Part shown: positions 1,832 through 54,300 of the stretch, piece by piece
How positions within the stretch are numbered: the stretch's first letter is position 1
How the letters are laid out: each line of letters opens with the position of its first letter
From: Bugula neritina
Lineage: Eukaryota; Bryozoa; Gymnolaemata; Cheilostomatida; Bugulidae
NCBI GenBank assembly: GCA_964035545.1
Contig: OZ037770.1
Coordinates: 4,817,662-4,881,661 of the forward strand
Direction of reading: 5' to 3'
DNA: 64,000 bases
Program-made: the position numbers and the translations under genes
Notes under the pieces: generated by a model
What the model was told of the DNA's origin: nothing
The model's input: the letters and a program-made list of their open reading frames with translations, nothing else
Databases searched by the model: none

Positions 1832-2580
1832 TCAGGTTATGGCATGGCACTTCCCGTTGCCCGCACAGCCACGCGTCCCTGGATTATGGGAGGCGTAGGG
1901 TGGGACGGTCCTCCGCCCTTGTGACGGGCTCTGTTGAGGACCTTCCGTCGTAGCTTCCAATGACGACCAAATGTCTTCCTCCTGTACAGGATGGAAGCGG
2001 CCCAGCATGGACCCGGATGGTAGGTCTACCGTTTCTGGGGAGGGGTTGACACACTGCGCCGAGATCTCTCCTTGTCCCGTAAGCTGGTTACAGCTGCGGG
2101 CAAGTTGGATTCTTGGGTGCGTGCTTTCGACAACTCCCAACCTAGAGGTCTGGCTACCGTCTACTTTGCAGCGGACGGTGGCCCGGGAATGGCCTGGTAT
2201 CGTACAGCTTCGTACTACCTGCACTCCTCCCGCTAGAGAACAACCAAACTTATCGACACAGGTGAGCTCCCTGTCGCCCATGATCATTGCAAATTTACTA
2301 AAATCGATGTGACATCCGTTTCATGGTAAAAATGACATCCCGAGGATAGCATCCTCGTTGAGCTGTCCGACGATAAACTTCTCCTGGATGGTCTGGTCAC
2401 GGACACAACCAGTGAGCTCAATAATGCCGTAGAAGGGAATGCACGACCCGTTTGCTAGGGTGCCATGATTCCCCTCGTTTGGTGCCAACCCGCTCCTGAC
2501 CTTAGCGTTGAGGGTGTCAAAGAACTGACGGCTCAAGAGGTTGGTGGTGCAGCCCAGGTCTAGAAGGAAGTTGGCAGGTT
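1832..2580 (-). pseudogene. Aspartic protease and linker remnant, copy 1
   Basis: The minus-strand frame near 2575-2540 reads LLDLGCTTNLLS, the position where the second copy has LLDSGCTTNLLS. The catalytic DSG triplet has become DLG. Downstream residues (IPFYGIIELTG, EDAILGM) match the second copy, then the linker (ELTCVDK, VQVVRSCTIPG) continues in another frame at 2287-1832. This is a broken retropepsin, and the reverse transcriptase expected next is deleted. Confidence 0.7.
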
Positions 2581-2915
2581 TGCCAGCTATCTTTCCTGGC
2601 AGGAAGTAGCTACTCCCTTGGGGGGATGCATTTGTGCGTGCCGTAGTTGCACCTCACTCGCTATGGGTCGAGGGGTTCATGGTTGGTGACGGCCATTGAC
2701 CAGCTGCCGAAATTGGGGCGGTACGCCTTGCGGGGCCTGTACCGTTTTCCTGGCAGGCTCTGAGGTCATTAGCCCGTTGGATCTGTTTCGGAGCGGCATA
2801 GGGGACCCAGGTGGCGAGTGGCTTGATCAGCCTACTTGCCGTGGTGATCGCCACTCCACAGTATCCTCGCATGGCACCCAGTGTGACGGCCGACGCATTG
2901 TCCCCCCTGGGTGAT

Positions 2916-3844
2916 TTACCGGCGGCCCGCAGAAGGTGGGAACATCTGCGAGCCGTGGTAGTTTAACCCTTGTTGGAGTTGGGGGTAGTTTCTCTGAAAG
3001 TGTCCAAGTCCTCCGCATTCCCAGCCGAAGTTATGCCCCATGCCTGGTGACTGTGCCTGCGGCCCGCAAGGCTCACGGGCAGTATCAACCTGCCTTGGGG
3101 GAGCTAATGTGGCGACCAGTTTGGCTAGCATGTCAGTCATCTGAGCGTCCTTCGATGCTACCGTCATCAGTGTCACATTAGCCACTGCGGAGGGCTCCGC
3201 ATCTGGTTCGGTATGAGCAGTAGTGTGCTCCGTGGCTACCTGGCGGGAGGCCACGCGGTTGCGGTGCATCTGAGTTGTCAAGAGGTAGGCTTCTCTTACC
3301 GCGAGTGCATCCTCGACCGCGGTGACTCCCCTCGCTTGGAACTGATGGTGGAGTCCCAAGTTGTTGATGGACTGCACGAAGGCATCATAAGTATACCTCT
3401 CACGGTTCGCTTGAGGCAGATCAGTGTCATCACCATGATAGCGTGCTTCTGCAGCGGCGTGTGAGGATCACGCCGCAGCCTTTGTAGGCGGGCCCGCGCA
3501 TCTATGGCAGAGATACCAAAACAGGCCCGCAGAGAAGTGGAGATCCCGTCTATGTTAGGTCCCGCTCCGTAGGGCTTAGCCTTGCCTGTCAGCGCCATCC
3601 TGAGCTTGAGCAACGCCACCCTTGGGGGCCACCGTGCAACTTCCATCACATCTTGAAACTCCTGGATAAATTGTTCAACAGCTTCCTCGCCTGTGAAGGT
3701 GGGCGCCTTCAGCCGGTATCTGTCCTCACCGGGCTCTCTGGGAACTCTCACTTCTTCCACCACTACTGGTTCAACAGGTATATCAACATTATCTTCCTCA
3801 CCTTCATTCAGTGGAATGGGTAGCTCCGTACCGTCTTTCGCCAT
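2916..3844 (-). pseudogene. gag remnant of element copy 1
   Basis: The frame begins at an ATG at 3844, about 35 bp inside the putative LTR, and runs to 3296. A second frame, 3377-2916, overlaps it, which implies a frameshift. Residues such as EEAVEQFIQEFQDVMEV and ARLQRLRRDPHTPL are of the capsid type found in gypsy elements and match the second copy at 51.2-51.5 kb. The C-terminal nucleocapsid motif is damaged: around 2985-3030 it reads WECGGLGHFQRNY, where a CCHC knuckle would end in Cys. Confidence 0.65.
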
Positions 3845-3879
3845 AACTGTTCTGCGCAAGACCACACTTCTGCCACCAC

Positions 3880-4228
3880 TGTAGTAATTCGTGCAAAAAC
3901 TGTGCATGAGTTTTTACTTGCGTATTTAGTTGGCTATTCTACTAGCAATTACTAGAGTTGCTGACGAGTAATCACCTTTATTATCCACAATACAATACAT
4001 AACAAACATTACATCAAACTACAATACAAAATCAGTCACTACTAATACGTGTTTACACTTCAAGCCCTCGCTTACAACAACATGATCATTGCTAATTGCC
4101 CGGGAACTGTCACATGAATCGGAAGTACATCTTCCGGTTCTTCTGATTGAATAATACATTGGGGCCTTAGTATTCCCCGAACGAAGAGAGGACGATTTCT
4201 ATATTACTGCATTGCGTGACCCACTACA
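3880..4228 (-). repeat. Putative 5' LTR of element copy 1
   Basis: On the plus strand the segment starts TGTAGTAATT and ends CCCACTACA. The same termini bound the LTR of the second copy at 44345-44653. It lies immediately upstream of gag on the minus strand and contains an AATAAA-type signal on that strand near 3978. The interior is diverged from the other LTR, so the assignment rests on termini and position. A TGG-initiated stretch just inside the boundary (minus strand from about 3878) could be the primer-binding site. Confidence 0.5.
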
Positions 4229-26549: not shown

Positions 26550-28410
26550 ACTTTCTTTGTCTAGTTTCTTCTCCTGTTATATAATTAGAGGGCCTGATTG
26601 TGACCTTTCTTATTCAGTTGTGTTTTTTAATACCGTGTTTATACTCTAGCGCAAAAAAACAAAAATAGCTTAAATTAAAGATATATATATAGTGTACTAA
26701 CTTAAGTAAAATAACCCACATGTTCAAAGGTTTATCAGCCTAACTCAACCCGCACGTAATTCTTGCGTATTACTAAGACGCCAAATTACTACAATATCTC
26801 ACAAAAATTTCGATATTTTAGTGAATTTGCTAATTAATACTGTTGTAGTTTTGTGCACTATTCTTTAGGGTGTTATTGCGCGCTCAATAAATACTGCATA
26901 TCACTGTGAGGTTATGTGAAGAACCGAACCAGTTGATTATTTGACGAGAGAACTGTATTAGTATTTCAAGTACGCACTTGCAATAAAAAGTCATATATAT
27001 ATATAAGTATAAAAAAGAAAAGAGTACAATTAGTAAAATGTTGCACAAGGTTAACCTGTCTACTTAACTACCATCGTCTAGACTGGTGTAGATACTGGAC
27101 GGCATTGTTTATATATGAGGGGTTGATCTTGATTGGATTAATAAGGTTCTGGTGTTGTCACCATAAAGGGTGATACGGTGCCACACAGGGAAGCGCTATA
27201 ACTAGCGGAGTTGTCCTCCTTGAGACAATAGTTGCACCATAATATATTGTAAGTCTGTAGCAGGGGCACTGAAGGGTGTGCTTCCCTAAACCACTGCAAC
27301 ATACTATTAATATTAGCTAGTGTTCTATTTCTTACATTATCTTTTTTAACCTATATATAATTTACTTGTAGTTATAGTTTATTTCCACTTAGATCTATAG
27401 TTTTGTCTTAGACCTCAACTGTCTAGCTTCTGCACTGCATTCATGCAGCTGGATGAAGTCATACAAGTATTTTGTACCAACATGACTCTGGAGTAGGTTT
27501 ATTCATAGCAACTGTATTATTTCTTCTTATAAACAGCATATAATTATACTTTATTATTATATTATTTAGTTGTCATGTTGTACTATTATATATAGCATCA
27601 TTATAATGGTATAGTATTATTGCATAATGTATAGCATCCTTATATCATAGCATTGTTATATATAGTATCATCTTATAGTTTTGTTATGTATAGTAATATT
27701 GTATTGTATTATTGTGTAGTATTATTATATAGTACATATAGTTGTAGTAACTCTTTATTGAGTACAGCTGCATGCATATGCATGGTAATAATATAGATAT
27801 TTTATATATTATTATAGGATATTATAATAGGCTACAGGGTGTCATTATGCAGTAGTCTGGTAAACTTTGTTTTGTTTTGATGCTATATTACATTAGTCTT
27901 CATAAGTATTTCACTAAGTCTGCCTTTCTTTTTCACATAAAAATGTGTGTGGTGAGTTTAAAATATTTAAAATTATATAGTACTTTTCTATAAGACAACA
28001 TTATGGTTAAAGTTCTGTTGATTAGTAAAAGTATTATACAGTTAGTTGAACAAAATATTATTATATAATATGTTGCATGCTTGTGAGCACTCATACATAA
28101 CCTTGAATGTTAAATTAAGTACAAATGCATAGTGTATGATTATATACAGTAATCATATATTTGTGTGTATTAGTATTGCATTCATTTAATACTATACTCT
28201 ATTTTATTTCAAAATATGTAGAAATTTATTGCAACTAAAACGTAATTCCACATGCAAGTGTTATGATATCATAATATATTTAGTACTGAAAAATTTCATT
28301 CGGTATTAAAGACCTATATTTGCTATCATTACATGTTTAGTATTAAGAATTAACATGGTAAATCACTTACCTCTCGTTTGTACTGACAATAGAACTATAA
28401 TATGTTTTTA
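26550..28410. other. AT-rich stretch without a recognised gene
   Basis: Nothing coding was recognised. A less AT-rich patch at about 27130-27300 is not assignable. Confidence 0.4.
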
Positions 28411-28770
28411 GGTTATGGAATCTACAGGAGTTACAGATACTAGACATATCAGAGAATAACTTCACCAGTCTATACCATCTTCAGTGTGCAGACTGAAAAA
28501 ATCTGCTAGAACTCAAGTTAATCTTCAATGACTGCATGACATCGTTGAATCAGCTGAGATACTATACTGCTAACACATCTTAGTTCTTTATACTAGGTGG
28601 TTGTAATGCTCTTACAGCTCCTCTACTATAAACCTGTAAGAAAGAGGGTTAAATGCTGTGAGACAATACTACACACATTTGGCTAAAGGAGCAGGTAGAA
28701 ATATTCCATTCGCTACAATAACTGTATTGTGAAAGACCAGCTTGCAGAGCACTAATAGCAAGTGGTGTCT
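28411..28770 (+). pseudogene. Broken Roco (LRR-Roc) gene fragment
   Basis: This stretch aligns base by base with 52840-53190 of the large gene: the last LRRs (ISENNFTSL), the linker (RQYYTHLAKGAGRN) and the first strand of the Roc domain (PFATITVL). It has several in-frame stops and a deletion that removes the P-loop. A TTTTTAG acceptor-like site precedes it at about 28411, as in the functional exon. It is the relic of a duplicated paralogue. Confidence 0.85.
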
Positions 28771-33355: not shown

Positions 33356-36300
33356 GTATGTGTATTTAAACTATTTATTCAACTCCTGACTTGGCGGATT
33401 GTCACTGTGAATAGTTGGCACTAATATTCTACCTTACACTAATACTCTACCTTACACTAATATTCTACCTTACACTAATATTCTACCTTACACTAATATT
33501 CTACCTTACACTAATAGTCTACCTTACAATAATACTCTACCTTACGCTAATGGTCTACCTTACACTAATAGTCTACCTTGCACTAATATTCTACCTTACA
33601 CTAATATTCTACCTTACACTAATATTCTACCTTACACTAATATTCTACCTTACACTAATATTCTACCTTACACTAATATTCTACCTTACACTAATAGTCT
33701 ACCTTACACTAATAGTCTACCTTACACTAATATTCTACCTTACAATAATATTCTACCTTGCACTAATATTCTACCTTGCACTAATATTCTACCTTACACT
33801 ACTAGTCTACCTTGCACTAATAGTCTACCTTACACTACTAGTCTACCATACACTAATATTCTACCTTACACTAATATTCTACCTTGCACTAATATGCTAC
33901 CTTGCACTAATAGTCTACCTTACACTACTAGTCTACCATACACTAATAGTCTACCTTACACTAATATTCTACCTTACACTACTAGTCTACCTTACACTAA
34001 TAGTCTACCTTACACTAATATTCTACCTTACACTAATAGTTTACCTTGCACTAATATTCTACCTTGCACTAATAGTCTAGCTTACACTAAGCCTAGGGCC
34101 ACACGGTGCGTATTTTCGCATGCGAAAATTGAAATTACAAGTAGCAAAGGTGTCAAACTCTCATCTCAAAAAAGTGACAGTTGCGTTCAGAGATCAGACA
34201 GTTGTGATGTCACAAAGGTCAACGAGTTCACAGTGGCAGCCTCATAATACTGTTTTATGTCACTAATTAGCGTATTGCTTTGAAACTGGTACAACAGACA
34301 AAATTATGCAAGCAGTTGGGTTAGAGTTGTCTTATCTCAACAGAATAAACACTGAACTATAAACTATACATTAAATGATTATTTAGAAAGAATACAAAGC
34401 TATCTAATAAAATATATGTTACTCATGGTTATGATTACTGAAATCCACCATATAATTAATATATTCGATCAGTAGATGACAGGTGTCAGAATGATAGACA
34501 GGACCTGTGAGCACTGTGTAATAATCATTTTGTCACTGTATGATGTTACAGAAAATATGGGAATCTGGTTGAGACATTCTGGACAGCCTCCTGTAGACTG
34601 GTCAGATGTACAGTCTGCTAATACCAAGTCATATACTATTGCTGAGGTGAAACGTGAAGTTGGGAGTTATGATATCACAGATCTCAAACTAGAGGGAACA
34701 ATTCCAAGTAACATTGGAGAGATTGCTGGTAAAGCCATGTGTCTATGTGTTTCTAACCTGACTGACAGAGCAAGTCTAGACAAGTGAGTGTCTATTAAAT
34801 AGCTGTGTAAATGTTAAACAAGTTTATTTGTGTTATTTATTAAATAATAATGGATAATAGACACTGAAGCTGAGGCATATTTTTGCTCATAATATATGCG
34901 TACAACATAATATACATCAACATAGTAATATGTCCAAGAGAACCTGTCTCTACTGTTATTTGATAGTGTTGACTGAATGATGTTTCATGTATATATATAG
35001 CTAAAAACTGGAGTAATGTACAGTTTGTAATATATTATACAGAAGATTATGTTTTGTCATCAACTGCAAATTTACAATCCTAAACATTAGTCAATATAAT
35101 AACTTACATAGCAATTTAGAGTGAGGCCTCATGTACTATAAACTAACAGCTAACCTTGCATAATGAAGCTTCCTCTCCTCACTTACAACAGAATATAACT
35201 GAAACTCTTTGGTGTTTTTTGCAACAATATATCTGTTTCCTGCATGTTTTTTCTGTTAAATACGCAATTAGCATAATATAATAGTATATTTTATTTTGAT
35301 ATGGTAAACATAAATACATGACACACTTTATATTACAGTCTATGCCAGCTGACTCAGTTAGAGAAACTAGACATAGGATATAATCCTCTCAACACAGTAC
35401 CAGAAGTTGTGTCATCACTTACATCACTTGAGGAGTTAAATGTGGAAAACTGTAAAATAGCTACTCTACCTGAGAGGTTTCTGTGTCGCAGTCTTTTTTG
35501 TTTCAAACACTCAATGATTCACATGTTGATATAATGCTTACGAAGTATGGCGAATTAGTATGTCACTATGTATTGTTGAAAAGCATAAAGCTATAAATTA
35601 CAATTTTCTTGAAGCTATATGATATTAGAATTTTCTCAAAACTTGAAAATATTGTAAATATGTTTCAGTTATCTGGCATTACATTTTCATTGCTATAAAA
35701 CCTTGTTCAACAAATACTATAGCACCCACTTGTAGTTTACTAAAATCTAGTTCATGTTAAATGCTTTTTAGCTTTTGCTATTTTACTTTAAATTTGCTTT
35801 GTTGCAATAAATATGTTTCTTGGATATTTTACCTGATTGAATACACAAGTATCGTATATACAGTATATAATAATATCCTTATACAGTGGATTACATATAT
35901 TATGCACTTTATATTACAGTCTATGTCAGCTGACTCAGTTAGAGAAATTTAACATAGAAGGGAATTCTCTCCACACAGTACCAGAAGTTGTGTCATCACT
36001 CGCATCACTTAAAGAGTTGAATATGTGGGGCTGTGAATTATCTACTCTACCTGGGAGGTTTTGTATTGCACAATATTATCTCTGTTTCAAACATTCAATA
36101 TTTCACTTCTTTAATGCTTATCAAGTAGTGTTATGCTATTTTATTATATATTGCCAACGTATGTTAAAAAACCTATAGATATGCATTTTCGAACTTGTCC
36201 AATAGTTTGTCGCAAGGTGGAAATAATACAGCATTATGGTATGCTATTGTATATCCTTATATCACAAGAACCTTTTGTAATGAATAATAAAACAGCCATC

Positions 36301-39300
36301 TGCAGTTTACTGGCAATCATGGTAATAATCGAATCATTCTTAGCTTCTTGCGTCAATCACTTTGACTATCCATTACCGGAATGAATTTTTTTCTGAACTT
36401 TTTACCTGACTGACTGTGCTTAGCAATATAACATGTACAGTGTATATTATTATGACACAGTAGACTACATATATCATACCCTTTATAATTATTGCAGTCT
36501 ATGCCAGCTGACTCAGTTAGAGAAACTAATTTTAAGAGGAAATCCTCTCAACACAATACCAGAAGTTGTGTCATCGCTCACATCACTTAAGGAGTTGTAT
36601 ATGGGGAACTGTAAATTATCTACTCTACCTGAGAGGTTTGTGGAACACAGTCTTTCTTGTTTCAAACACTCAATAATTCACATGTTGATATAATGCTTAC
36701 CAAGTATTGCTAATTAGTATGTCACTATGTATAGTTGAAAAGCATAAAGCTATAAATTACAATTTTCTTGAGGCTATATTGTATTTGAGTTTCTCAAAAC
36801 TTGAAAATAAATATGTTTCAGTTTTCTGGCATTACATTTCCTATTGCCATAAAAAGTTCTTCAACAAATACTATAGCACCGCTTGTACTTTACTAGAATC
36901 TATTTCATATTAAATGTCTTTTACTTTAAATATGCCTTGTCAAAATAATTTTTTTTTGCATGTTATACCATATTGAATACACCACTGTAGTATACAGAGT
37001 ACATAATATTATCCTGATACAGTGGATTGCATATATTATGCACTTTATATTACAGTCTATGCCAGCTGACTCAGTTAGACAAACTAGACATAGGATGGAA
37101 TCCTCTCAACACAGTACCAGAAGTTGTGTCATCACTCACATCACTTAAAGAGTTGTATATGGGGAACTGTAAATTGTCTACTCTACCTGAGAGGTTTGTG
37201 GAGCACAGTCTTTCTTGTTTCAAACACTCAAAAATTCACATGTTGATATAATGCTTACCAAGTATTGCTAATTAGTATGTCACTATGTATTGTTGAAAAG
37301 CATAAAGCTATAAATTACAATTTTCTTGAGGCTATATTATAATATTAGATTTTCTGAAAACTTGAAAATAAATATGTTTCAGTTATCTGGCATCACATTT
37401 CCTATTACTATGAAACCTTCTCCAACAAATACTATAGCACTCGTTTGTAGATTACTAGAATCTATTTCACATTAAATGCTTATTAGGTTTCGGTATTTCA
37501 CTTTGAATTTGCTTTGTTGCAATAAATTTGTTTCTTGGATATTTTACTTGATTGAATACACAAGTAGTATATACTATTATCATGATACAGTGGATTAAAC
37601 ACATAACACACTTTATATTACAGTCTATGTCAGCTGACTCAGTTAGAGAAACTAGACATAGGAATGAATCCTCTCAACACAGTACCAGAAGTTGTGTCAT
37701 CACTCACATCACTTAAAGAGTTGTATATGGGGAACTGTAAATTGTCTACTCTACCTGAGAGGTTTGTGGAGCACAGTCTTTCTTGTTTCAAACACTCAAA
37801 AATTCACATGTTGATATAATGCTTACCAAGTATTGCTAATTAGTATGTCACTATGTATTGTTGAAAAGCATAAAGCTATAAATTACAATTTTCTTGAGGC
37901 TATATTATAATATTAGATTTTCTGAAAACTTGAAAATAAATATGTTTCAGTTATCTGGCATCACATTTCCTATTACTATGAAACCTTCTCCAACAAATAC
38001 TATAGCACTCGTTTGTAGATTACTAGAATCTATTTCACATTAAATGCTTATTAGGTTTCGGTATTTCACTTTGAATTTGCTTTGTTGCAATAAATTTGTT
38101 TCTTGGATATTTTACTTGATTGAATACACAAGTAGTATATACTATTATCATGATACAGTGGATTAAACACATAACACACTTTATATTACAGTCTATGTCA
38201 GCTGACTCAGTTAGAGAAACTAGACATAGGAATGAATCCTCTCAACACAGTACCAGAAGTTGTGTCATCACTCACATCACTTAAAGAGTTGTATATGGGG
38301 AACTGTAAATTGTCTACTCTACCTGAGAGGTTTGTGGAGCACAGTCTTTCTTGTTTCAAACACTCAAAAATTCACATGTTGATATAATGCTTACCAAGTA
38401 TTGCTAATTAGTATGTCACTATGTATTGTTGAAAAGCATAAAGCTATAAATTACAATTTTCTTGAGGCTATATTATAATATTAGATTTTCTGAAAACTTG
38501 AAAATAAATATGTTTCAGTTATCTGGCATCACATTTCCTATTACTATGAAACCTTCTCCAACAAATACTATAGCACTCGTTTGTAGATTACTAGAATCTA
38601 TTTCACATTAAATGCTTATTAGGTTTCGGTATTTCACTTTGAATTTGCTTTGTTGCAATAAATTTGTTTCTTGGATATTTTACTTGATTGAATACACAAG
38701 TAGTATATACTATTATCATGATACAGTGGATTAAACACATAACACACTTTATATTACAGTCTGTGTCAGCTGACTCAGTTAGAGGAACTATACATAGGAC
38801 ACAATCCTCTCAACACAGTACCAGAAGTTGTGTCATCACTCACATCACTTAAAGAGTTGAATATGTGGTACTGTGAATTATCTACTCTACCTGAGAGGTT
38901 TGTATTGCACAATATTATCTCTGTTTCAAACATTCAATATTTCACTTCTTTAATGCTTATCAAGTAGTGTTATGCTATTTTATTATATATTGCCAACGTA
39001 TGTTAAAAAACCTATAGATATGCATTTTCGAACTTGTCCAATAGTTTGTCCTAAGGTGGAAATAATACAGCCTCATGGTATGCCATTGTATATCCTTATA
39101 TCACAAGAACCTTTTGTAATGAATAATAAAACAGCCATCTGCAGTTTACTGGCAATCATGGTAATAATCGAATCTTTCTTAGCTTCTTGTATCAATCACT
39201 TTGACTATCCTTTACCGGAATGAATTTTTTTCTGAACTTTTTACCTGACTGACTGTGCTTAGCAATATAACATGTACAGTGTATATTATTATGACACAGT

Positions 39301-42300
39301 AGACTACATATATCATACCCTTTATAATTATTACAGTCTATGCCAGCTGACTCAGTTAGAGAAACTAAAGTTAAGAGGAAATCCTCTCAACACAATACCA
39401 GAAGTTGTGTCATCACTCACATCACTTAAAGAGTTGAATATGGGGAACTGTAAATTGTCTACTCTACCTGAGAGGTTTGTGGAGCACAGTCTTTCTTGTT
39501 TCAAACACTCAAAAATTCACATGTTGTTATAATGCTTACCAAGTATTGCTAATTAGTATGTCACTATGTATTGTTGAAAAGCACAAAGCTATAAATTACA
39601 TATTTCTTGAGGCTATATTGAATTAGAGTTTCTCATTACTTGAAAATAAATATGTTTCAGTTATCTGTCATTACATTTCCTATCGCTATAAAACTTTTTT
39701 AACAAATATTATAGCATCCACTTGTAGTTTACTATAGTGTGTATTTCTCATTAAATGGTTATTAGAGCCTTCTGTACTTTACTATGAATATGCCTTAGCG
39801 TAATAAATTTGCTATTTGGATATTTTACTTGATTGAATATGCAGTGTTTGTTATGATACAATAAATTAAATATATCACATACTTCTTATTACAGCCTGAG
39901 CCAGCTGACTCAGTTAGAGAAACTAGACATAGGATGGAATCCTCTCAACACAATACCAGAAGTTGTGTCATCACTTAAAGAGTTGGATATGGAAGGCTGT
40001 AAATTATCTACTCTACCTGAGAGGTTTGTGTGTCACTACAAATTTTATATCATTTTTAACGTTCAATAATTGTTATTTTGAAGCAGAATTTCAACACAGT
40101 AACTACTACATTAAGATGTTTATACTTTTTCTCTGCAAACCCCCATACGAATCTTAACGTTTCAGAGGATATTGTCAATTAGCACACTATCAGTTGTATA
40201 GTTGATTATTATTCACACACTGAGTATATATAATAATTGAATACTTGTATGCTATTATAATAAACTGTTAACTTCTCATGCTCTGCATGTAATATGCTAC
40301 AATAAGTTGCTTGGTTGTTAAATTGTATATAGTTTTACCTGGTTGAAAACAAAATGTGAATACAGTATAAAGTTTTATGGTAATGCAGACCACATATATA
40401 TCATACACTTTATATTACAGCCTGTGTCAGCTGACTCAGTTAGAGAAACTAAACATAGGAAGTAATCCTCTCAACACAGTACCAGAAGTTGTGTCATCAC
40501 TCACCTCACTTAAAGAGTTGGATATGTGGAACTGTAGATTATCTACTCTACCTCAGAGGTTTGTGTGTTACAATAATTATTTCTTTTGTTTTAAACATTC
40601 TATATTTCACTTCTTTAATGCTTCTCAAGTAGTGTTATGCTATGATATCATATATTGCCAACGTATGTTGAAAAACATAAACATGTATTTTTTTAACTTA
40701 TCTAGTTGTTTGTCCTAATGTAGAAATAATACAATTTTATAGTGAGCCATTGTATATCCTTACATCACAATACTTTTTGTAATCAAAAATAAAGCAGGCC
40801 TCTGCAGTTTACTGACAATCATGGTAATAATCGAATCTTTCTTAGCTTCTTGCGTCAAGCACTTTGACTATCCATTACCGGAATGAATTTTTTTTCTGCA
40901 TTTCTTACTTGGCTGACTGTGCTTAGCAATATAATATGTACAGTGTATATTATTATGACACAGGAGACTACATATATCATACCCTTTATAATTATTGCAG
41001 TCTATGCCAGCTGACTCAGTTAGAGAAACTAGACATAGTAGATAATCCTCTCAACACAGTACCAGAAGTTGTGTCATCGCTCACATCACTTAAAGAGTTG
41101 GATATGAGGATCTGTGAATTATCTACTCTACCTGAGAGGTTTGTGGAACACAGTCTTTCTTGTTTCAAACATTCAATAATTCACATGTTGATATAATGGT
41201 TACCAAGTATTGCTAATTAGTATGTCACTATGTATAGTTGAAAAGCATAAAGCTATAAATTACAATTTTCTTGAGGCTATATTGTATTTGAGTTTCTCAA
41301 AACTTGAAAATAAATATGTTTCAGTTTTCTGGCATTACATTTCCTATTGCCATAAAAAGTTCTTCAACAAATACTATAGCACCGCTTGTACTTTACTAGA
41401 ATCTATTTCAGATTAAATGTCTTTTACTTTAAATATGCCTTGTCAAAATAAATTTTTTTTGCATGTTATACCATATTGAATACACCACTGTAGTATACAC
41501 AGTACATAATATTATCCTGATACAGTGGATTGCATATATTATGCACTTTATATTACAGTCTATGTCAGTTGACTCAGTTAGAGAAACTAGACATAAGAAG
41601 AAATCCTCTCAACACAGTACCAGAAGTTGTGTTATCACTCACCTCACTTAAAGAGTTGTATATGTGGAACTGTGGTTTATCTACTCTACCTCAGAGGTTT
41701 GTGTGTTACAATAATTATTTCTTTTGTTTTAAACATTCTATATTTCACTTCTTTAATGCTTATCAAGTAGTGTTATGCTATGATATCATATATTGCCAAC
41801 GTATGTTGAAAAACATAAACATGTATTTTTTTAACTTATCTAGTTGTTTGTCCTAATGTAGAAATAATACAATTTTATAGTGAGCCATTGTATATCCTTA
41901 TATCACAGAACTTTTTGTAATCAAAAATAAAGCAGCCCTCTGCAGTTTACTGACAATCATGGTAATAATCGAATCTTTCTTAGCTTCTTGCGTCAAGCAC
42001 TTTGACTATCCATTACCGGAATGAATTTCTTTTCTGAACTTTTTACCTGGTTGACTGTGCTTAGCAATATAATATGTACAGTGTATATTATTATGACACA
42101 GGAGACTACATATATCATACCCTTTATAATTATTGCAGTCTATGCCAGCTGACTCAGTTAGAGAAACTACACATAGACGGAAATCCTCTCAACACAGTAC
42201 CAGAAGTTGTGACATCACTCACATCGCTTAAAGAGTTGGATATAAAGAGCTGTGAATTATCTACTCTACCTGAGAGGTTTGTGGAACACAGTCTTTTTTT

Positions 42301-45300
42301 TTAGTTTCAAATGTTCAATAATTCACATTTTGATATAATGCTTACCAAGTATTGGGAATTAGTATGTCACTATGTATTGTTGAAAAGCATAAAGTTATAA
42401 ATTACATATTTCTTGAGGCTATATTGAATTAGAGTTTCTCATTACTTGAAAATAAATATGTTTCAGTTATCTGTCATTACATTTCCTATCGCTATAAAAC
42501 TTTTTTAACAAATATTATAGCATCCACTTGTAGTTTACTATAGTGTGTATTTCTCATTAAATGGTTATTAGAGCCTTCTGTACTTTACTATGGATATCCC
42601 TTAGCGTAATAAATTTGCTATTTGGATATTTTACTTGATTGAATATGCAGTGTTTGTTATGATACAATAAATTAAATATATCACATACTTCTTATTACAG
42701 CCTGAGCCAGCTGACTAAGTTAGAGAAACTATACATAGGAGGGAATCCTCTCAACACAGTACCAGAAGTTGTGTCATCACTCACATCACTTAAAGAGTTG
42801 AATATGCAGAGCTGTGAATTATCTACTCTACCTGAGAGGTTTGTGTGCCACAACAAGTTTTATATATCACTTTTAACATTCAATAATTGTTATTTTGAAG
42901 CAGAATTTCAACACAGTAAATACTACATTAAGATGTTTATACTTTTTCTCTGCAAAAACTACATATGAATCTCACCGTTTCTGAGGATATTGTCAATTAG
43001 CACACTATCTAGAAGTTTCCTCTGCTTCACAAGTTATTTTATAGTGTTTCTATTTCTTTTTGAATATCTCCCATGATAGGTTGACTGGGCTGTTTTTCAG
43101 AAATCGTTTTAATAACTATTTTTGTTATATTATAATTATAGCTACTTCTGTACACATAATTAGCATATATATTACATTATTATAGTATCACAGTTTCTTT
43201 TTACTGTCTAATTGAATGCACAAGTGCTATATACAGTATCTACATAATATTATCCTGATACAGTGGATAACATATATCATGCACTTTATATTACAGTCTA
43301 TGTCAGCTGACTCAGTTAGAGAAACTATACTTAGGAGATAATCCTCTCAAGACAGTACCAGAAGTTGTGTCATCACTCACATCACTTAAAGAGTTGAATA
43401 TGTGGAGGTGTGAATTATCTAATCTACCTGAAAGGTTTGTGGAACACAGTCCTTCTTGTTTCAAACACTCAATAATTCACATGTTTTTATAATGCTTACC
43501 AAGTATTGTTAATTAGTTTGACAATATGTAGTGTTGAAAAGCATAAAGCTATAAATTACAATTTTTTTGAGGCTATATGATATTAGAGTTTCTGAACACT
43601 TGAAAATAAATATGTTTCAGTTATTAGGCATTACATTTCCTATTGCTCTATAACCTTCTTTAAATAATACTATAACACCTACTTGTGGTTTACTAGAATC
43701 TATTCCCCATTACATGCTTATTAGCTTTCGGTAGTTTACTTTGAATTTGCTTTGTTGAATTAAATTTTTTTCTGAACTTTTTACCTGACTGACTGTGCTT
43801 AGCAATATAACATGTACAGTGTATATTATTATGACACAGTAGACTACATATATCATACCCTTTATAATTATTACAGTCTATGCCAGCTGACTCAGTTAGA
43901 GAAACTAAAGTTAAGAGGAAATCCTCTCAACACAATACCAGAAGTTGTGTCATCACTCACATCACTTGAAGAGTTGAATGTGGAGAAATGTGAATTATCT
44001 AATCTACCTGAGAGGTTTGTGTGTCACTACAAATTGTACATCATTTTTAACGTTCAATAGTTATTATTTTGTAGCAGAATTTCAGCACAGTAAATACTAC
44101 ATTAAGATGTTTATACTTTTTCTCTGCAAACCTCCATATGAATCTCGCCTTTACAGAGGAGATTGTCAATTAGCACACTATCTAGAAGATTCCCGACGTC
44201 ACAAATAAGTTTATAGTATTCCAATATCTTTTTTGAAATGCTTCCCATGAGAGGTTGACTAGGCTTTTCTTAAGAAATTGTTTTATCAAACCTTTTCATT
44301 ATATTATAATGATTGTTACTTCTGTACCCATAATTGGTATATATTGTAGTAATTTTAGTAATTACTAGTTTTGTGGGCTTCTAGCGAGCAATATCTTTAT
44401 ATTATCTTCCAATAATATCACGGCTTGTAACAGGAATGAATGATTTATTAATACGCAGTAAAAGTAGTAGCGAAACGATACATCCAATATCAAGGGTAAA
44501 AATATACATCTATCTTACACTAACTAGCTATCACACTCTGAGTATGGCTGCTATCTACATCCGGCGCCCTCCGCGCATTGCTGGGGGTCTCATGTGACGG
44601 ATATCGGATTGGCTGGGGAGCACGTGGGATAACATACTACACTCCCCACTACACTGCCCCCCACCCCAGCAGGAAGCCCACCATCCTGATAATACCAAAA
44701 TAAAAAAATAAAATAACAACAAAAAAACAATAAGATATCTGCATCAAAAGATCAAAATTTATACTTAGGCCAACGGTTTATTAAAAAAAAACATCTGGTT
44801 AAAATATAAAAATTAGGCACTATAAAACTAAGAGATTGTATCTGTATCAAGAGCTTTTTGTACGGCACCGAGAGATATGATGTGTAGAGAGACGGTAAGT
44901 GAGGCACCACCTGCGGCGTAGATCAGGAGGACAGCTGGAAAGAGTTAGGGACAGGGAAATAGAGAGGGGAAGGAGAACGTCATCTACGACACTGGGGTTG
45001 TCACAAAGACGGGTGTCTGGGCAATGTGGAAGGTAGACACTCAGTCTTTATCATCTCTCTTGAGCTGGGCCACAGAGTCCCGGAGAGCCTTGAGTTCAGA
45101 AGCGGCGGCTGATATCCTAGACGCCAACCTCTCTCTCTCTAGTTCATGCATCCGTTGCTCCATCTCTCTTAGATTTCTAGCAACAGAGGAGTGGCGTTTG
45201 GGGATGAAGACTGCCATCGCCACTTACGAGAGGGTCGAGGGAGACAGGTGAGGACGGGCATCATCTCTGGGGGACTTCTATCCGTTGTAAGACTACTCGG

Positions 45301-48300
45301 AGTACGATGTTGGGACGGGGCGCAGTGTGAGCGGGGGTGACAGGCGAGGTACCAGGGGCTTCCTAAGCCCAGGGGGTTTGGGGCAGGGTCCTTGGGTAAT
45401 GGCACGGGGAGCGGGAAATTCTTGGCTCAGCCGTTCGTAACGAGCAGGGTCTGAGATGAATGGCTTGATGAGGCCGAGAAAAGTAGGGAAGGAAAGCTTG
45501 TCCACATTGTAGAGATGTCCAACGTGACACTCCATAGTCTTCTGGTGACGGAGGGTGTAGTCCCTGTGGTAGCTGTACTCCCCACAGGGGCGGAAGGTGG
45601 TGATAAAATGTTGATGGATGTGTACTCGGAGGCGGCGAGGTGTGGTGAAATGCTGTTGACACAGCCGGCAGGTGGTGCAGTTGTCGTTTCCTCTATTTTG
45701 TTGAATCATGTTCTCGCTACCCTGGGTAACCCAGCTAGACCGGGTTATGAGTATCTCCGGTAGTGTAGCGGAAGTAGGTTCCGTCTCCCAAGCCATCTCC
45801 AATGGTGGCATATCATCATAGTTAGAACAGCGAGTGATATCTGAAAAAGCAGAATTATTGTTAGATCAAATTTGATCTTTACAGCATAATTCTGATGACA
45901 ATCGACTGTTACTAGTCTGAGAGTCATGCATCTTTTTGTACGGCACTCGAGAGACTGTGTTTGGACGTGTAGACTGGCTGAGAAACATAGTGTCAAGTTC
46001 CAGATCTAGTAGATCATCGGCCATTGTTATGTCCTCGTCGTCTTTCACGTTTAGCCCAGTCTCCAGCAATTGTGATTCAACCAGAGTGATAAAATCAGAA
46101 TTAACTGATGTCAGACCCGTTTCCATAGATAGGAATACTAGGGCTAGGCAGGCTTACTTTGGAACTTGGTATTTGGAATCATACTCAACGTTCAAGCTTG
46201 GATTTTAGTGGTTTTAGTATGTCTACCTTTGGTGATGTCAGCGTAAAAAAAGACTGGACAGCGTGTTTATTTCGCATGACTAGAACTGTTTGCCTCGGGC
46301 GCAATAATTCCACCTAATACTCCGCCCTCGCAAAAGTTGATATTTTCGCGGTGTTCACAACTTCCTTCGTTTCGCTACCAGTCTCTCAGTACCGCACCCA
46401 GCTTGGCCTTCATGTCTGCCGCTTGTAACGCAGTCGCATACGAAGTCTCAAATATACTAGGGGTTGCCTAGTACGTTGTCCACTTTCCAAGGGAAGTGGT
46501 GTACTAATTGGGGGAGATGGTGTAGTCACTGCTCGTGGCGGTGTACTCACTGGTGGACTGTTATGTTCCATCGGTGGCGTTTCCGGCCTACTATTGACTG
46601 CTGTATTATTTTCAAGATTTCCGGATACAGCCCTCCCCCGGGGGGTTTTGCAATTCCGGAGCTGAAACAGGTTCCGGAAGTGGTGGCGTTAGACTTGGCG
46701 CTGGGGGTGGTGGGCGCACTTCTGGTAACGGAAGTGGTCCTTCCTGCCTCACCAAGTCTTCTGCCCGCGGCATGACCACTTCATACTCTGGTTCATGTCG
46801 CCGCCGCCCACGTGTTGCTGTCTGCCTCCTGGGCTCTAACAACCGGGGGGGGGAGGGTTCTCCTGCCGCACCTGGGCTAGCCCAATACAGCTTCAAGCGA
46901 GCCTCATTCTGAATAGACACCTGTCCTGAGCGCTCAAGCTTGTAGGTGTGATTGGGCATCACTTCAACTACCGCGTAGGGTCCCACGAACTTAGGCTGTA
47001 GCTTAGCCGCCTGTCCTTGACGCCTACGGTAGTTGACCATCCACACCCAGTCTCTAACTTTGTAGAAGGGGGGTTCCTCGGAGTCTTCTTTTCGCACCTG
47101 CCACTGAATTTCCCGTAGTATTGTGTGTGCGACCTTCATTTGCTTTACCAATTTGCTGACATACTCGTGGATGGAGTAGTCCTGCTCAGGAATGTGGTAG
47201 GTGAGGTCATCTGGCACCCTAGTCTTTTGAACGAGCATCAGGAGGTTAGGGGTCTCACCAGTACTGGTGTGCGGTGTGTTACGATAGGCCCGCAAGACTT
47301 GCGGCAACACCGTATCCTATTCCTTCTGACTCCGGCTGAGGAGAAGACTGTGGAGTGCATCGCCCAGCATCCGGTTGTTGCGCTCCACCACTCCGTTTTC
47401 CTGGGGGTAGTATGGAGTGGTCCTGCTTTAATTTACTCCTCAGAGGCAGCAAAGATCGCTCATCAGCTGAGACTAAAATTGAGCCCCCTGGTCCGAATGT
47501 ATATGCTCAGGCAAGCCAAAATAGCAGAATACATGTTGGTCCAGCACCCTGGCCACTGTTGGAGCGGACGCATCTGGGATAGCCAGAGCGTCTGCCTACC
47601 TAGTGAAGTGGTCGGTTAATACTAGGATCCAACTGTTTCCTCTGGAGGTTAGGGGCATGGGTCCGACCAGGTTGACAGCCACCACTTGCCACGGCCTTCC
47701 AGCATATAGCCTCCACCGTCCCGCTTCACCAAGGAGACGACCATGCTTGCTGGCCTGGCAGATTTCGCACTGTCTTACTCTGATTCGTACATCACGCTCC
47801 ATGCTAGGCCAGTACCACCGAAGTTGTAATTTGGTCTGCACCCTCTGGACTCCTGCGTGAGCCTGTTTGTGGGTGTTCCATACTAACTCCCGGCGGATAG
47901 CAGCTGGGCAGACTACCCTCTTCTTCTCGGGGTGTCTGTTGCTTGCGGCCAATGTCATGGTCAGCAGATAATCCGGCCCGATCCGCAGGGAGTTCCAACG
48001 TTAACAATACAGCCGTAATTCGGCGCTTCTCTGCCTCAGCTTTTCTTCATTGGGTCGTCGCCCCTCCTTCTTGGCTTGGTACACGTCGGCTACCACTCCC
48101 AGAGGGTTTCCCTGGAGTTTCCGTAGCTCCCTAACGTTACTGGCCAAGACAGGGTTGGCGCGGAGGTTTTGTACTACCTTCGGAGGCGTACCTGCCTTCT
48201 GTTGGAGTTGACCCTGGTCCCAGTCATACTCTATCTCAGGGTGGTCCAGTGCCGTCAACTAGGACCGCAGGGGACTTCCATCCCTCTTCTCAATGTTGAG

Positions 48301-51300
48301 ACACTGCCTACACCCTTCGTCTGGTCGCCGGCTCAGTCCGTCTGCATTGCCGTGCTTCTTACCGGGTCGATGTTTGATCCGGTAAAATAACTCGGCCAGG
48401 ACCTCGAGCCATCTCGCGACCTGGCTAGACAGTTCTGCTCTCTCGCACAACCAAATCACAGAGGTGTGGTCCGTACGCAGCCGGAACTTCTGGCCGTATA
48501 GATAAGGTCTAAAGGTCTTCACTGACTTGATTAATGCCAGCAGTTTCTTGCGGGTAGTGCAGAAATGTCGTTCAGTGGGTGAGAGAGACTTGCTGTAGTA
48601 GGCTACTACTACTTCACTACGTTCCTGCACTTGCGACAGCACAGCGCCAACATTCTGGTCACTGGCGTCCGTGTCTAGGATATACTCCAGAGCGAAGTTT
48701 GGGTAGGCCAAGATAGGAGCCTCCAGCAGACGGCCCTTGAGGCAGTCGAACGCCCTCTGTTTGACGGAAGTCCACTTCCAGGTCACCCCCTTTGCGGTGA
48801 GCCGATTTAACGGCTGTGCCACCCCTGCAAAGTCTGGTATGTATTGCCTGTAATACCCTACCAGCCCCAGGAAAGCCTGAAGTCCGGTCAAATCGGGGGG
48901 GTAACCCAGTTTTCCACAGCTCGTACTTTTTCAGGATCAGTCGCCACGTAATGACGGCCGACGATGTGCCCCAGGTACCTCACCTCCGGCTGCAAGAGAG
49001 CGCACTTGGAGGGTTTGAGCTTCAGGTTGGCACCTCTGAGTCGTTCAAACACCTCCCGCAGACAACTGACGTGTGTCTGGAAGTCTGGGGAGATCACGAT
49101 GACTTCATTGAGGTAGAGTAGCAGTGTCTTCCAGTGGAGCCCACTGAGGACCTGTTCCATGAGCCTCTGAAATGTGGCAGGGGCGGAGGTCAACCCAAAG
49201 GGTAGTACTTTCCACTTCCACAATCCGTCCCGTGTGAGAAACACCGCCTTCTCCTGGGCGTCGGGACTCAGAGGGACCTGCCAACAACCGCTCAGCAAGT
49301 TTAGTGTACTAAAGTACTTGCTGCCGGCCAGGGCGTCCAGAGATTCATCAATCCGGGGTAAAGGATAGGCGTCCTGTATGGTTACGCTATTTAGTTTGCG
49401 GTAGTCCACGCGGAACCGCCAACTGCCGTCTTTCTTCTGGACCAGGACAACCGGCGAGCTTAATTCACTATGTGCTGGCTCCTTCTCTTTTTCCGGCCCC
49501 AACCTCCTCATGGGTTGCCAGGTAGGGAGAGTCCCCGCAGCCAACGGTATCTCATGACAGACAGCTCTAGTCAGGCCCAAGTCATGATCTCCGCTGCTGA
49601 ACACTTCGTTGTACTCGCATAGCAACTTGGCCATAGCCTGTCGCTCCCCGTTGCTCGCGCAGCTATCACAGGACGACTTGTACAACTCTTGGACATGTAG
49701 CGGGACGGTCCCCCGCCCTGGAGACGGGCGCTGTTGGGGACCTTCCGTCGCATCTCCCAGCGACGGCCCTATATCCTTTTCCTGAACAGAATGGAAACGG
49801 TCCAGTACGGACCCTGATGGTAGCTTTACCGCTTCTGAGAAGGGGTTGACACACTGTATCAAGATTTCTCCTCATTCAGTCAGCCGGTTAAGACTACTGG
49901 CGAGTTGGAATCTTGCGAGCGCGCCTTCGACAACTCCCAACCCAGAGATCTGGCTACTGTTTACTCTACAGTAAATGGTAGCCCGGGTACGGCCTGGTAT
50001 TGTACAGTTCCGTATTACCTGCACGCCTCCCACTAGGGGACGGCCAGACTTGTCGACACAAGTGAGCTCCTTGCCGGCCATCAGTATAGCTGACTTGTTA
50101 AAGTCAATGCGGCAACCATGTCGCTTCAAGAATGGCATCCCTAGTATAGCATCCTCCTCGAGTTGGCTGATGACGAAGGTTTCCTGGGTGGCCTGGTCGC
50201 GAACGCGCCCAGTCAGCTCTATTATACCGTAGAATGGGATCCGCGACCCGTCTGCAAGGGTGCCAGGTTCCCCGGTATAGGAAGCTAATTCTCTCCTCTC
50301 CTTAGAGGGAAGAGCGTCAAAGACCCGACGGCTGAGGAGATTCGTGGTACACCCGGAGTCTAACAAGAAAGTGACAGACCTGCCGGCCACCTTCCTGGTA
50401 AGAAATAGCTGTCTCCATGTGGTTGTACCCTTACTCCCCCAGCGTGCTCGGTCTCGGCCTGGTGGGGCAGTGCCCGTTTCGCCCGCGGTTTTCGGGGCCT
50501 CTTAGGGCGAGGTTTTCTCCGCGGAGGGGCGATTAGTTCCCCTCCGATGTCCGGATGGACCTTGCCAGCCGGCTCCATCTCTGGTAGCCAGCTGAAGCGG
50601 TTAGCGAGAGGCAGTGTGAATGGTTCCAGTCGCCCCTCTGGTCAACTGGTCCAACGGGGTGCCTGCCACTCGTGGGGGGTATACCGCGCTGTCCGTACGA
50701 ACGCCCTGCGGTATCCACCTCGTGGTTCCTTCATTCTCGGCCTGCGGGGTTTGGAGGCGTCCGCGAGCCGTTGAAGTTTAATCGTTTCCCATATAGTGGG
50801 CAACTCGAGCAGAGATTTCCTCGTGTGCCGCATCTTCAACATAAAGCAGCTGGCCTCAGAACCTCTACCCTCGGCCTCAAAGGTCCTTGGGTGGGTTCTG
50901 TGGGGTTGGCACGGGCTAGGATCGCCACCAACTGTTCTAACATGGCTATCATGCGGTCCACCTCCGCTTCAAGAGGAAGGGTGGTGGTGGCGGCAGCCAC
51001 TTGGACTGGATGGTCCGGTCCCGAAGTGATTTGTTGGGAACTCACTTTAGCTCGGTAGAATTGTTTGGCCAAGATATAGGCCTCACCTTCATGCAGTGCA
51101 TTCTCTATCGTAGTCACCCCTCTTGCATGAAGCTGGTGGTGGAAACCCAAATCATTGAGGGACTGTACAAAGGCGTCATAGGTGTAGTGTTCCCGGTGTG
51201 TTTCTGGCAAGTTGCTGTATGCGATCTGTGCCAGTCTCTTCACTAGGGTAGCATGATCCTGTAGTGGTGTGCGCGCTTCTTAGTGCAACCTTTGTAAACG

Positions 51301-54300
51301 GGCCCTGGCGTCCACAGCGGAGATGCCGAAACGGGCCCGCAGCGCAGCAAAGATCCCGTTTACACTGGATCCCAGTCCGTACGACTTCGCTTGCTTCATC
51401 AGCGCCGTCCGTAGTTGAATCAGGGGTACTCGTGGTGGCCATCGAGTGATGGCCATGACTTCGTTGAATTCTCGAATAAATTGTTCAACATCTTGTAGGC
51501 CCGTAACATACTACACTTCCCACTACAACATTATATATTTTTATAGTAACACAGTTTCTTATTATTGTCTAATAAGTAAGAAAACTACTTTCTTATATTT
51601 ATAATGACATCACATTGCAACATAATTGACTCAATCAACCGTATTGTGTAAAGCTCATTAGTAAAAAGTCACTTAGTAGATTATATAGTATGTTTGATTT
51701 AGGTAATTCAAGTTTTACTTTTAATTATTTTGAAATAAAAGATCTGCTTTTATATTGTAAACCGAAGATGACAAAAAAAATTATTAAATATTGCAACTTT
51801 TTTTTTCATGCTCTCCTTTGGTTATTTATCTCCAATTCTCAGTGTAATAGAAGCCAATTTTTATCTTATTCCTGTTCTCAAACAGCCTGTTAATATATTG
51901 TTTCATAATTAATTTACAATTCTAAATTACGAATCAACTGGCCTTTAAAGGTGCAACATGTTCCTGCAAGCCGATGACTTTCCAGAATTGTATTCTCTCA
52001 TAGTGAAATAATTCACAACTTCTATTTCCTGTCTAGAAACTATAATACATTTATTAGGGTAATTAGTGAGAGGTTGTGGCAGAAGTATTTTATTTTACTT
52101 GAAATTACTTTAATGCTTTGCGTAGATGTTTCAGAGCTGTACTGTGTTCCTATTTGATGATAAATTGCATGTATTATGGCACATAAAACAATATTCCTTA
52201 TAATGATAACATCCATATAGTAGAATATCAGTGTGAACAGTTACTCAGTGATCAGAAGTGTCAGAAGTATTTTATTTTCACTTCACATTACTTTAATGCC
52301 TTATGCAGATGCCACAGAGCTGTAGCCTACCGTGTTCCTATTTGCTGATAACTGTGTTGTGGCACATACTAGGAATTTTCTACTCTGTGGTATAAAATAT
52401 TATTCCTTCTGGTAGAATACCAGTGTGAACAGTTACTCAGTTATCTGCCATATAAAAAAAGATGATAGTATTACATGTAGGTTGTTTTTTTATGACAGTA
52501 CTTAGTACAAATGTAGCACTTTTTTTACCAAATATATACTTACAATTATACTGTTATATTATATATCTTTATAAAATAGTTAAAATGTTATGAATCATAT
52601 ATAATATGATACTCGTACATAATTGTAACTTAGACATACTTGTTTTCTTTCCTTAATTAATGTACTAATTCAAGGTATTGTATATAAACTTGTTATAGTA
52701 ACTGCAACTTAGTACTATATTATGTGTAATTATTGTTATACTAATATTGGGTATCTTTATGAAAACTATTATATCAATTACCTGTATAGCTAGGTCTAAT
52801 AATAGAAATCTTATATATTAATAGAATACAGAGATTAAAGAAGTTACAGAAACTCACAATTTCAGAGAATAACTTCACCAGTCTACCTTCTTCAGTGTGT
52901 GCATTGAGTAATCTGCACACATTGGATATAGGCAGCAACAGATCCATGACAGCCTTGAACCCTGAGATACTACAGCTAACACATCTTGAGTTCTTCTATA
53001 GAAATGGATGTGATGCTCTTACATCTCCTCCACTAGAAGTCTGTGAAAGAGGACTCGATGCTGTGCGACAATACTACACAGACTTGGCTAAAGGTGCAGG
53101 TAGAAACCTTCCATTTGCTACAATAGTGGTGTTGGGGAACACCATGGCAGGTAAAACCAGTCTAATCAGAACATTACAGAGCACTGACAAGAAGAGAGTT
53201 CTGACTGACAGAAGTCCTAATGCAGAGTATGATGAGACCACAAAAGTGTTCAATGTGGAAGAGGTGGAGGTAGATGGTACAACTCTTCGTCTCATAGATA
53301 TGGGAGGCCAGGAGGTCTACCATATCACGTACCATTTGACACTGAGACAGAATTGTGTACCAGTAGTTGTAGTCAACATGGAGCAGCATGATCAGATTTC
53401 AAATGAGTCTACAGATAAAGAGGCTGTAAGAAAGTTGGCCTTTGACTTCATGTCTCACCTCTATCTCGCTCATCCAACTCTTGGTCCGCCTAAGCTTGTC
53501 TTCACACACAAGGATAAGTTTCCGAGGGAAGTTTTCCAACAGCTTCGAAGAAATTTTCTTGAAGTGTCTGAGCAGTTTTGCAGAAATATTCTTGAAGAAG
53601 AGAAAAGTTTAGAAGGTGACTTTGCTCGAATTCAACATTTCACTGCATCAAACGGAAAAGTGTTCTCCAATGACAACATATATGAAGTTGGGAAATTTGA
53701 TGAGTACAAGATATTTGAATCAATTAAAAAATCTCTTCTTCAAAGTTGCCAACACTTTGTAAAGCCACTTCCGAAGGTCTGGGAGGATGTCAACAACAAC
53801 ATTTTGTCCTTACATGCTTCACATAACACCTTTGATGAAGTATTGGCTGTGATAAACGAGAAGCAGGATAACATTGAAGCAAAGCAGTTGGATACGATTA
53901 TCATGTACATGCATGATTGTGGCAAAGTTCTCTGGTATAAACATATTGATGCACTCAGGCCACACATATTTCACAAGATCACAGAAATAACCAAGCTACT
54001 CTGTGTCTTGTATCATCATGATTCGGACGTCTGGCAAAATAGAGTTGATCAGTTCAAACCATATTTTTCAATGGAAGGAGTGAGGATTGAAAAACAAGAA
54101 TTTGAAGAGTTTGTGAATTCCTTTAGAATCAATGGCTTGATGACAAAATCTCTTCTTGAATATTTGATCAGAAAAGAAACTTCGTTCACTGGTGATAATG
54201 ATGTCGGAATTGCTGTTTGCTTGCTCAGAACATTCCGTTTGTTGTATGGCCCTTTGAATAATGATTCTGAAGAGTCTTACTTCATAATCCCTCAGTTTGC

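Follow-up and report, generated by a model that had tools for sequence, protein, structure and literature searches.

Leucine-rich-repeat cassette exons under diversifying selection in a putative LRR-Roc-COR-caspase receptor family of the bryozoan Bugula neritina

We have analysed a stretch of 64,000 nt from the bryozoan Bugula neritina (hereafter the window; contig OZ037770.1, positions 4,817,662 to 4,881,661), and found that it carries on the forward strand a gene in which 16 tandem leucine-rich-repeat (LRR) cassette exons precede a Roc-COR exon and a caspase domain. The residues of the cassettes that are placed on the concave face of the repeats are under diversifying selection, and the framework around them is under purifying selection. 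We consider it likely that the gene belongs to a large, clustered family of intracellular LRR-Roc-COR-caspase receptors that is diversified in the germ line, with all units of a gene stacked in one solenoid.

Selection and exchange among the cassettes

The array extends from 35339 to 44014. An initial annotation had described it as 16 tandem exons, 15 of them of 138 bp, in phase 2 and with two 23-residue LRRs each, and this description was confirmed: all 16 are preceded by AG, followed by GT and in phase 2 at both ends, and every full cassette codes for two 23-residue LRRs. The full cassettes are located at 35339-35476, 35920-36057, 36498-36635, 37056-37193, 37624-37761, 38192-38329, 38760-38897 and 39337-39474 (cassettes 1 to 8), and at 40421-40558, 41001-41138, 41559-41696, 42139-42276, 42701-42838, 43297-43434 and 43877-44014 (cassettes 10 to 16). 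Cassette 9 (39895-40023) is 129 bp long, having lost three codons with the frame kept. With up to three mismatches allowed, we found a 21-base framework word at 16 places in the window, versus none in 100 shuffles. The annotation also held that the exposed residues differ in nearly every cassette. As proteins, 15 of the 16 cassettes are indeed distinct, with 13 distinct first-LRR and 13 distinct second-LRR blocks among the 16, but the wording was slightly too strong, since exons 3-6 have one second-LRR block in common and units 5 and 6 are identical.

To the window we added seven fetched gene regions, giving eight genes with 93 plus-strand cassette matches by nhmmer. We kept 91 of these as full cassettes (138 bp, AG/GT, no stop), and they lack stops because they were chosen in that way. 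Left out were window exon 9 (129 bp, no stop) and a stop-bearing truncated copy on contig C7; a reverse-strand fragment in gene G was excluded from the count. All 91 cassettes were used in the tests of flanking sequence, and the 86 unique DNA sequences among them in the tests of selection.

Variation among the 86 is concentrated at a few codons. The seven most variable (15, 37, 38, 12, 40, 14 and 35) correspond to x in the motif L-x-[IM]-x-x-[NC]-x, with Cys at codon 39 in 86 of 86 cassettes and Asn at codon 16 in 83. When ten concave positions were set from what we take to be the general LRR consensus, their mean entropy was 1.86 bits versus 0.36 bits for the rest, a difference reached in none of 100,000 permutations. 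The 15 full window cassettes taken by themselves gave 1.48 versus 0.23 bits, again with 0 of 100,000 permutations as large, which upholds the placing of the variation at ligand-facing x positions in the initial annotation. Three of the ten concave positions barely vary (10, 17 and 33, at 0.50, 0.81 and 0.25 bits), and moderate variation is found outside the ten at 46, 19 and 43 (1.19, 1.17 and 1.05 bits).

Selection was measured by Nei-Gojobori counts over the 3655 pairs of the 86 cassettes, which are pairwise counts and not PAML models. The exposed codons have pN 0.43, pS 0.22 and dN/dS 2.43, and the framework has pN 0.055, pS 0.104 and dN/dS 0.51; bootstrap ranges of pN/pS are 1.62-2.37 versus 0.44-0.61. 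Taken gene by gene, exposed dN/dS was above 1 in all six that were tested (1.34 to 4.10). The comparison by site that the annotation had suggested as a check therefore came out higher at the exposed sites, at 2.4 versus 0.5.

The flanking introns provide a yardstick that is independent of synonymous sites. We compared 320 bp of flanking intron, requiring 120 or more aligned bases per side, and binned 4058 of the 4095 pairs by flank divergence. Exposed codons are above flank divergence in all eight bins, by a factor of 1.2 to 17 in bins where the flank shows any difference. In the 17 pairs with flank divergence above 0 and up to 2%, the exposed codons differ at 17.9% of bases, the framework at 2.4% and the flank at 1.0%; in the five pairs with identical flanks, the exposed codons differ at 5.7% and the framework at 0.2%. 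Synteny between genes A and C extends over five cassettes, and there the differences amount to 26/105 exposed bases (25%), 19/585 framework bases (3.2%) and 52/2181 intron bases (2.4%). Fisher tests gave p 7e-12 and 4e-17 for the exposed contrasts, and framework and intron are alike (p 0.24). Within this block, the exposed differences number one base each in cassettes 13 and 14, and 5, 10 and 9 in cassettes 12, 15 and 16; the framework differences number 10 in cassette 15, 7 in cassette 16 and one base in cassette 12. The pattern in cassettes 15 and 16 is as expected if the exon had been replaced by conversion, with which cassette 12 contrasts.

The annotation had further proposed that the array could vary by copy number, conversion or unequal exchange, and the paralogues agree with it. 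The number of cassettes per gene ranges from 4 to 18 across the eight regions, where the 18 of gene B may be a lower bound since its N-terminal exon was not located. Divergences of the upstream intron, the 5' half of the exon, the 3' half and the downstream intron have rank correlations of -0.02 to 0.15 (4095 non-independent pairs). These near-zero correlations indicate that units and parts of units have been shuffled, and unequal exchange or conversion would be the process. Mosaics of flanks and reuse of blocks point the same way. Pairs of cassettes share (below 3% divergence) only the upstream flank in 21 cases and only the downstream flank in 27, with the other flank above 15%, and both flanks in 21 cases; for 28 of the 91 cassettes, the closest exon relative has both flanks more than 15% diverged. 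The DIGW block is shared by 10 cassettes from 7 genes, where it is paired with 8 different blocks, and the YIGD block, by which a cassette of gene C is told apart from its counterpart in gene A, is met again at five places in another array. Because units 5 and 6 of the window are identical over 568 bp, and identity at the offset of 568 extends over 1097 bp, this tandem duplication is recent.

No four-gamete quartet of whole blocks was found, and the case for re-pairing within exons thus rests on block reuse and flank mosaics. Near-identical exons (at most 3 differences in 138) with a flank more than 12% diverged were limited to two pairs, each from gene B and with the diverged flank downstream, so that transfer of a whole exon with neither of its introns is uncommon among the cassettes sampled. 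It is conceivable, but in our view doubtful, that a dedicated process such as short templated conversion or targeted mutation rewrites the concave-face codons alone, perhaps also in somatic or budding lineages, and so would give each colony its own self/non-self repertoire wired to a caspase. A lead in that direction is one pair of cassettes from different genes with identical introns (160 bp on each side) that differ at five exposed bases and one framework base; the first-LRR block of one of the two is found verbatim at five places in another array.

The gene and its family

The initial annotation placed the array inside a Roco protein. The Roc-COR exon supports that placement; a caspase domain and a genome-wide family had been overlooked, and the gene extends beyond the array described, from an N-terminal exon to caspase exons. 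In order, the window gene consists of the N-terminal exon, the 16 cassettes, the Roc-COR exon, two linker exons and three caspase exons. Joined, the 23 exons give 1762 amino acids without a stop, with AG/GT junctions throughout. The N-terminal exon (34557-34783, 75 codons plus 2 nt) has its ATG, frame and GT donor kept across six aligned paralogues, and a paralogue's version of it has no Pfam match. It ends in phase 2 (AA then T, for Asn) and is hence compatible with any cassette. Cassette 16 could be joined directly to the Roc-COR exon (AG then A, for Arg).

The Roc-COR exon (52825-54827, 2003 bp) codes for the terminal LRRs, a Roc GTPase domain and a COR domain. Roc was recognised by Pfam with E 2.1e-7 and 31.6 bits (cut-off 27), and contains what we take, by eye, to be the GTPase motifs. 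COR follows it directly, with a match to Pfam COR-A (E 9e-5) whose 22.8 bits lie under the cut-off of 35.3. The Roco structure 4wnr in the PDB matches the exon with a whole-sequence E of 3e-5, with no single stretch significant alone. At E up to 1, the Pfam matches of this central exon are to Roc, other GTPase, LRR and COR models, and the same scan found no NACHT or NB-ARC. The 23 best fold matches of a structure model of the Roc-COR part are all Roco or LRRK proteins; as the model is of low confidence (pLDDT 49) and its input alignment already held Roco proteins, it may add a little to the Roco assignment. A search for relatives of the Roc-COR part gave 15 matches, of which 7 are named and none is named Bugula.

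Downstream, a linker exon (55153-55245) and an acidic linker exon (55428-55576), both in the open spliced frame and bounded by AG/GT, lead to the caspase domain. Its first exon (55841-56011) is kept in the paralogues. The second (56262-56475) contains the motifs MTHGG and EACSG, which we take to hold the catalytic His and Cys and which align with caspase-3 and the paralogues. The third (56631-56862), in the spliced frame and found in the paralogues, would code for the linker between the subunits and, as judged by eye, for the first part of the small subunit. Over the joined exons (55841-56862) the domain matches PF00656 with E 2.3e-22, and among 164 solved relatives an ancestral effector caspase and chains of caspase-3 rank highest. 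Among the window gene and its paralogues, the catalytic His is present in 8 of the 9 sequences that cover it and the Cys in 8 of 8. Six paralogues on C6, the contig that carries the window, were compared beyond this point, and within the fetched stretches all six have a first p10 exon and five have a second.

Genome-wide, a query with the Roc-COR exon gave 66 scored matches among 154 candidates, the window exon included, so that there are at least 66 such exons. They are distributed as 29 on C6:2.5-6.3 Mb (both strands), 1 on C7, 21 on C1:32.5-35.1 Mb and 15 elsewhere, and 63 of the 66 have no in-frame stop. A caspase-exon match is located within 8 kb downstream on the same strand for at least 27 of the 29 in the C6 cluster and at least 48 of the 66 overall. 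The cassettes are concentrated on C6, where all but six of the 150 scored among 923 candidates are found. Strict framework patterns matched exactly at 119 places for the first LRR and 111 for the second, and at none for reversed controls; the genome thus holds at least 119 cassettes of this kind. The 100 listed places of the first-LRR pattern contain 60 distinct 12-nt blocks.

The same system is apparently present in a second bryozoan, Watersipora subatra, in which a protein (P0158) is colinear with 40% identity over 185 residues, and its alternating N- and C-type two-LRR units run into a start that resembles the Roc exon. This alternation in a colinear protein suggests that the two-LRR unit is older than Bugula.

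A contig of a JGI metagenome (P0238) holds a cassette with the same framework. No identical partner was found in the Bugula assembly among the best 150 of 656 candidates, the best being 93% over 44 residues, and it may come from another colony or another species. The mitochondrial COX1 on contig C295, translated with the invertebrate mitochondrial code (table 5), matches that of B. neritina with 100% identity over 447 residues; the next named matches, at 82-89%, belong to other bryozoans, and a sponge or cnidarian origin, which the gene architecture had suggested, was rejected on this basis. A full-length nuclear copy of COX1 lies on C6:11174072-11175412 and is 98.7% identical over 1341 bp to the mitochondrial COX1 (C295). 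Other COX1 matches are on C4 and on the small contigs C17, C196 and C65, the small contigs being perhaps companions of the sample.

Around the window gene, a satellite-like repeat with an ILPYTN frame occupies 33411-34244 (+), immediately 5' of the N-terminal exon, and has copies of about 89-97% similarity near paralogues B, C, D and E. Open frames that look by eye like retroelement gag/pol are located at 577-3913 (-) and 46615-51279 (-), the latter inside the intron that separates the last cassette from the Roc exon; similar DNA is found in regions B and F. Upstream of the gene, an orphan fragment at 28388-28739 (+) is about 75-77% similar to the first 350 nt or so of the Roc exon in seven paralogues, and appears to be a piece of another family member. 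A scan of the window against Rfam at gathering scores gave no match.

Weighing the explanations

How such a receptor may work is suggested by its anatomy. Each 138-bp phase-2 exon would provide one two-LRR unit, and the stacked units would form a long solenoid with the variable residues on its concave face. In the germ line, units, whole or in part, would be duplicated, lost and recombined by unequal crossing-over and gene conversion; diversifying selection would retain new concave residues, and the framework would be held constant. We propose that a ligand on the concave face relieves the Roc-COR switch, that the presumably cytosolic proteins then dimerise or oligomerise, and that the attached caspase is activated by proximity. 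The outcome could be cell death or inflammation, upon infection or contact with non-self tissue. All cassettes of a gene are probably included in its mRNA.

We would like to point out that a number of observations weigh against this reading. It draws on 8 of at least 66 genes in one assembly, and the cassette pairs compared are not independent of one another. The seven exposed codons were chosen after the entropy profile had been seen, which favours them. Synonymous change is also higher at exposed codons (pS 0.22 versus 0.10), so that selection is not the sole force there, and homogenisation of introns by conversion may inflate the contrast between exon and intron. Leu replaces the catalytic His in the caspase exon of gene D (C6:4.70 Mb), and the Roc exon of gene G (C6:4.99 Mb) has an in-frame TGA; some family members thus seem to have decayed or to lack catalysis. 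Among the caspase matches listed, no partner was found for 18 of the 66 Roc exons. The p10 exons of the window gene were not found in the remaining window or in the next 6 kb, and a match to the last p10 exon, which only possibly belongs to the same gene, is located at C6:4895714, 14 kb beyond the window end. The window copy may therefore be stretched or broken by insertions. Finally, a protein query with five cassettes returned none named Bugula among 120 listed of the 299 passing matches, many of which are nameless.

Dscam exon arrays and lamprey VLR modules are arrays of recognition modules; exons of one Dscam cluster substitute for one another, and VLR is assembled somatically. The initial annotation had likened the Bugula array to both. 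The likeness holds as far as arrays of recognition modules go, but the Bugula architecture looks intracellular, and the LRR-ROCO genes of brown algae are a much closer precedent. If the array were used as in Dscam, the mRNA would keep one or a few cassettes and alternative splicing would create a repertoire within the animal. Since all cassettes are in phase, any combination could be spliced, also to the N-terminal and Roc exons, and 79 of the 91 cassette donors read GTTTGT, a sequence absent from the window gene's 7 other donors; such sites may be weak and might let cassettes be skipped. Tandem LRR exons of brown-algal ROCO genes have been reported as alternatively spliced (PMC11378527). On the other hand, no sign of mutually exclusive choice was noticed in the sequence, where no dedicated search for such signals was made, and no transcript turned up in the five-cassette protein search, among the matches listed. 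LRR units stack, so that the joining of all of them is structurally natural, and in-phase exons give an ordinary long solenoid; copy number among paralogues could change without any splicing. We give the Dscam-like use a minor but real chance.

We think it improbable that the array reflects ordinary duplication of LRR exons in a structural or signalling Roco protein without a recognition role. Duplicated phase-2 LRR exons do exist elsewhere, in Tetrahymena (PMC6564038) and in gonadotrophin receptors (PMC11378527), but selection at concave sites, dozens of clustered paralogues, varying array length and a caspase tail fit recognition better. It is quite improbable that diversity is not selected at all and that the exposed sites are simply unconstrained, with conversion and purifying selection keeping the framework constant. 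The framework is indeed under purifying selection (dN/dS 0.51) and exchange is abundant. However, exposed pN (0.43) exceeds framework pS (0.10), and exposed codons outpace the flanking introns in every bin; relaxed constraint alone could raise change no higher than the neutral rate, and this explanation is largely contradicted here. An artefact, in which the assembler collapsed or duplicated near-identical units, or a cluster of dead genes is very improbable. In its favour are the identity of units 5 and 6, the stops in 3 of 66 Roc exons, the retroelement-like frames in the window and the displaced p10 exons. Against it, a stop is read in just 1 of 93 plus-strand cassette matches (the truncated C7 copy), the spliced frame of 1762 amino acids and 63 of 66 Roc exons are open, and a protein from Watersipora aligns colinearly with 40% identity over 185 residues.

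Precedents and meaning

The LRR-ROCO genes of the brown algae Ectocarpus and Saccharina have 72-bp phase-2 exons with one 23-residue LRR each, and exon shuffling, positively selected concave sites and alternative splicing have been described for them (PMC11378527). They number 9-47 per species and have been proposed as immune receptors (PMC11378527, PMC4104024). The Bugula family is alike in its LRR-Roc-COR order, its phase-2 LRR exons, its shuffling and its positive selection at concave sites, which we measured by pairwise counts and the brown-algal work by PAML models. It differs in its 138-bp exon, which codes for two LRRs that alternate between N and C type, in its caspase tail, in being animal, and in having at least 66 Roc-COR exons in megabase clusters; caspase is not mentioned in the available text of the brown-algal account (PMC11378527).

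Tens of thousands of LRR exons of exactly 90 bp in phase 2, with evidence of ectopic recombination, are found in Tetrahymena (PMC6564038). Fixed length, phase 2, variable copy number and ectopic recombination are shared features, but Tetrahymena is a ciliate, and neither Roc-COR-caspase nor 'positive selection' is mentioned in the searched text of PMC6564038. The HNWD NLRs of Podospora are also alike, as cell-death receptors in allorecognition with near-identical repeats kept by concerted evolution and a few hypervariable sites under diversifying selection (PMC12222747); they differ in having WD40 repeats and an NLR nucleotide-binding domain where Bugula has LRR exons and a Roc GTPase. Sensors joined to Roc-COR and to death or effector domains are known from Trichoplax, whose Roco proteins occur with CARD and death domains (PMC4104024), and from bacteria, in which rapidly evolving LRRs are carried on AP-GTPase (Roc)-COR proteins with varied effectors (PMC8195603). 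These placozoan Roco and bacterial conflict proteins differ from the Bugula family in that a cassette-exon array is not described for them in the text covered. Among the papers listed by a literature search over titles and the starts of abstracts, none reports Roco-caspase genes or arrays of LRR cassettes from a bryozoan. LRR exon shuffling and Roco receptors are thus already known; what is new is that both are joined to a caspase in an animal, that the unit is of two LRRs, and that selection and exchange among the units have been measured.

With its swappable recognition exons, GTPase switch and cell-death protease, the family looks much like an intracellular immune or self/non-self receptor. 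An animal has arrived at a design like that of the brown algae, with fixed-length phase-2 LRR exons, recombination of units, selection on the binding face and a Roco switch, and the caspase output on the same polypeptide makes sensing and killing testable in one protein. As bryozoans are colonial and Bugula bears a defensive symbiont, the family could plausibly serve in immunity, in tolerance of the symbiont or in allorecognition. The B. neritina genome paper, in the part available, offered only weak similarity to Alr1 by way of allorecognition candidates (PMC7576161), and it matters for that reason that the family described here supplies concrete ones.

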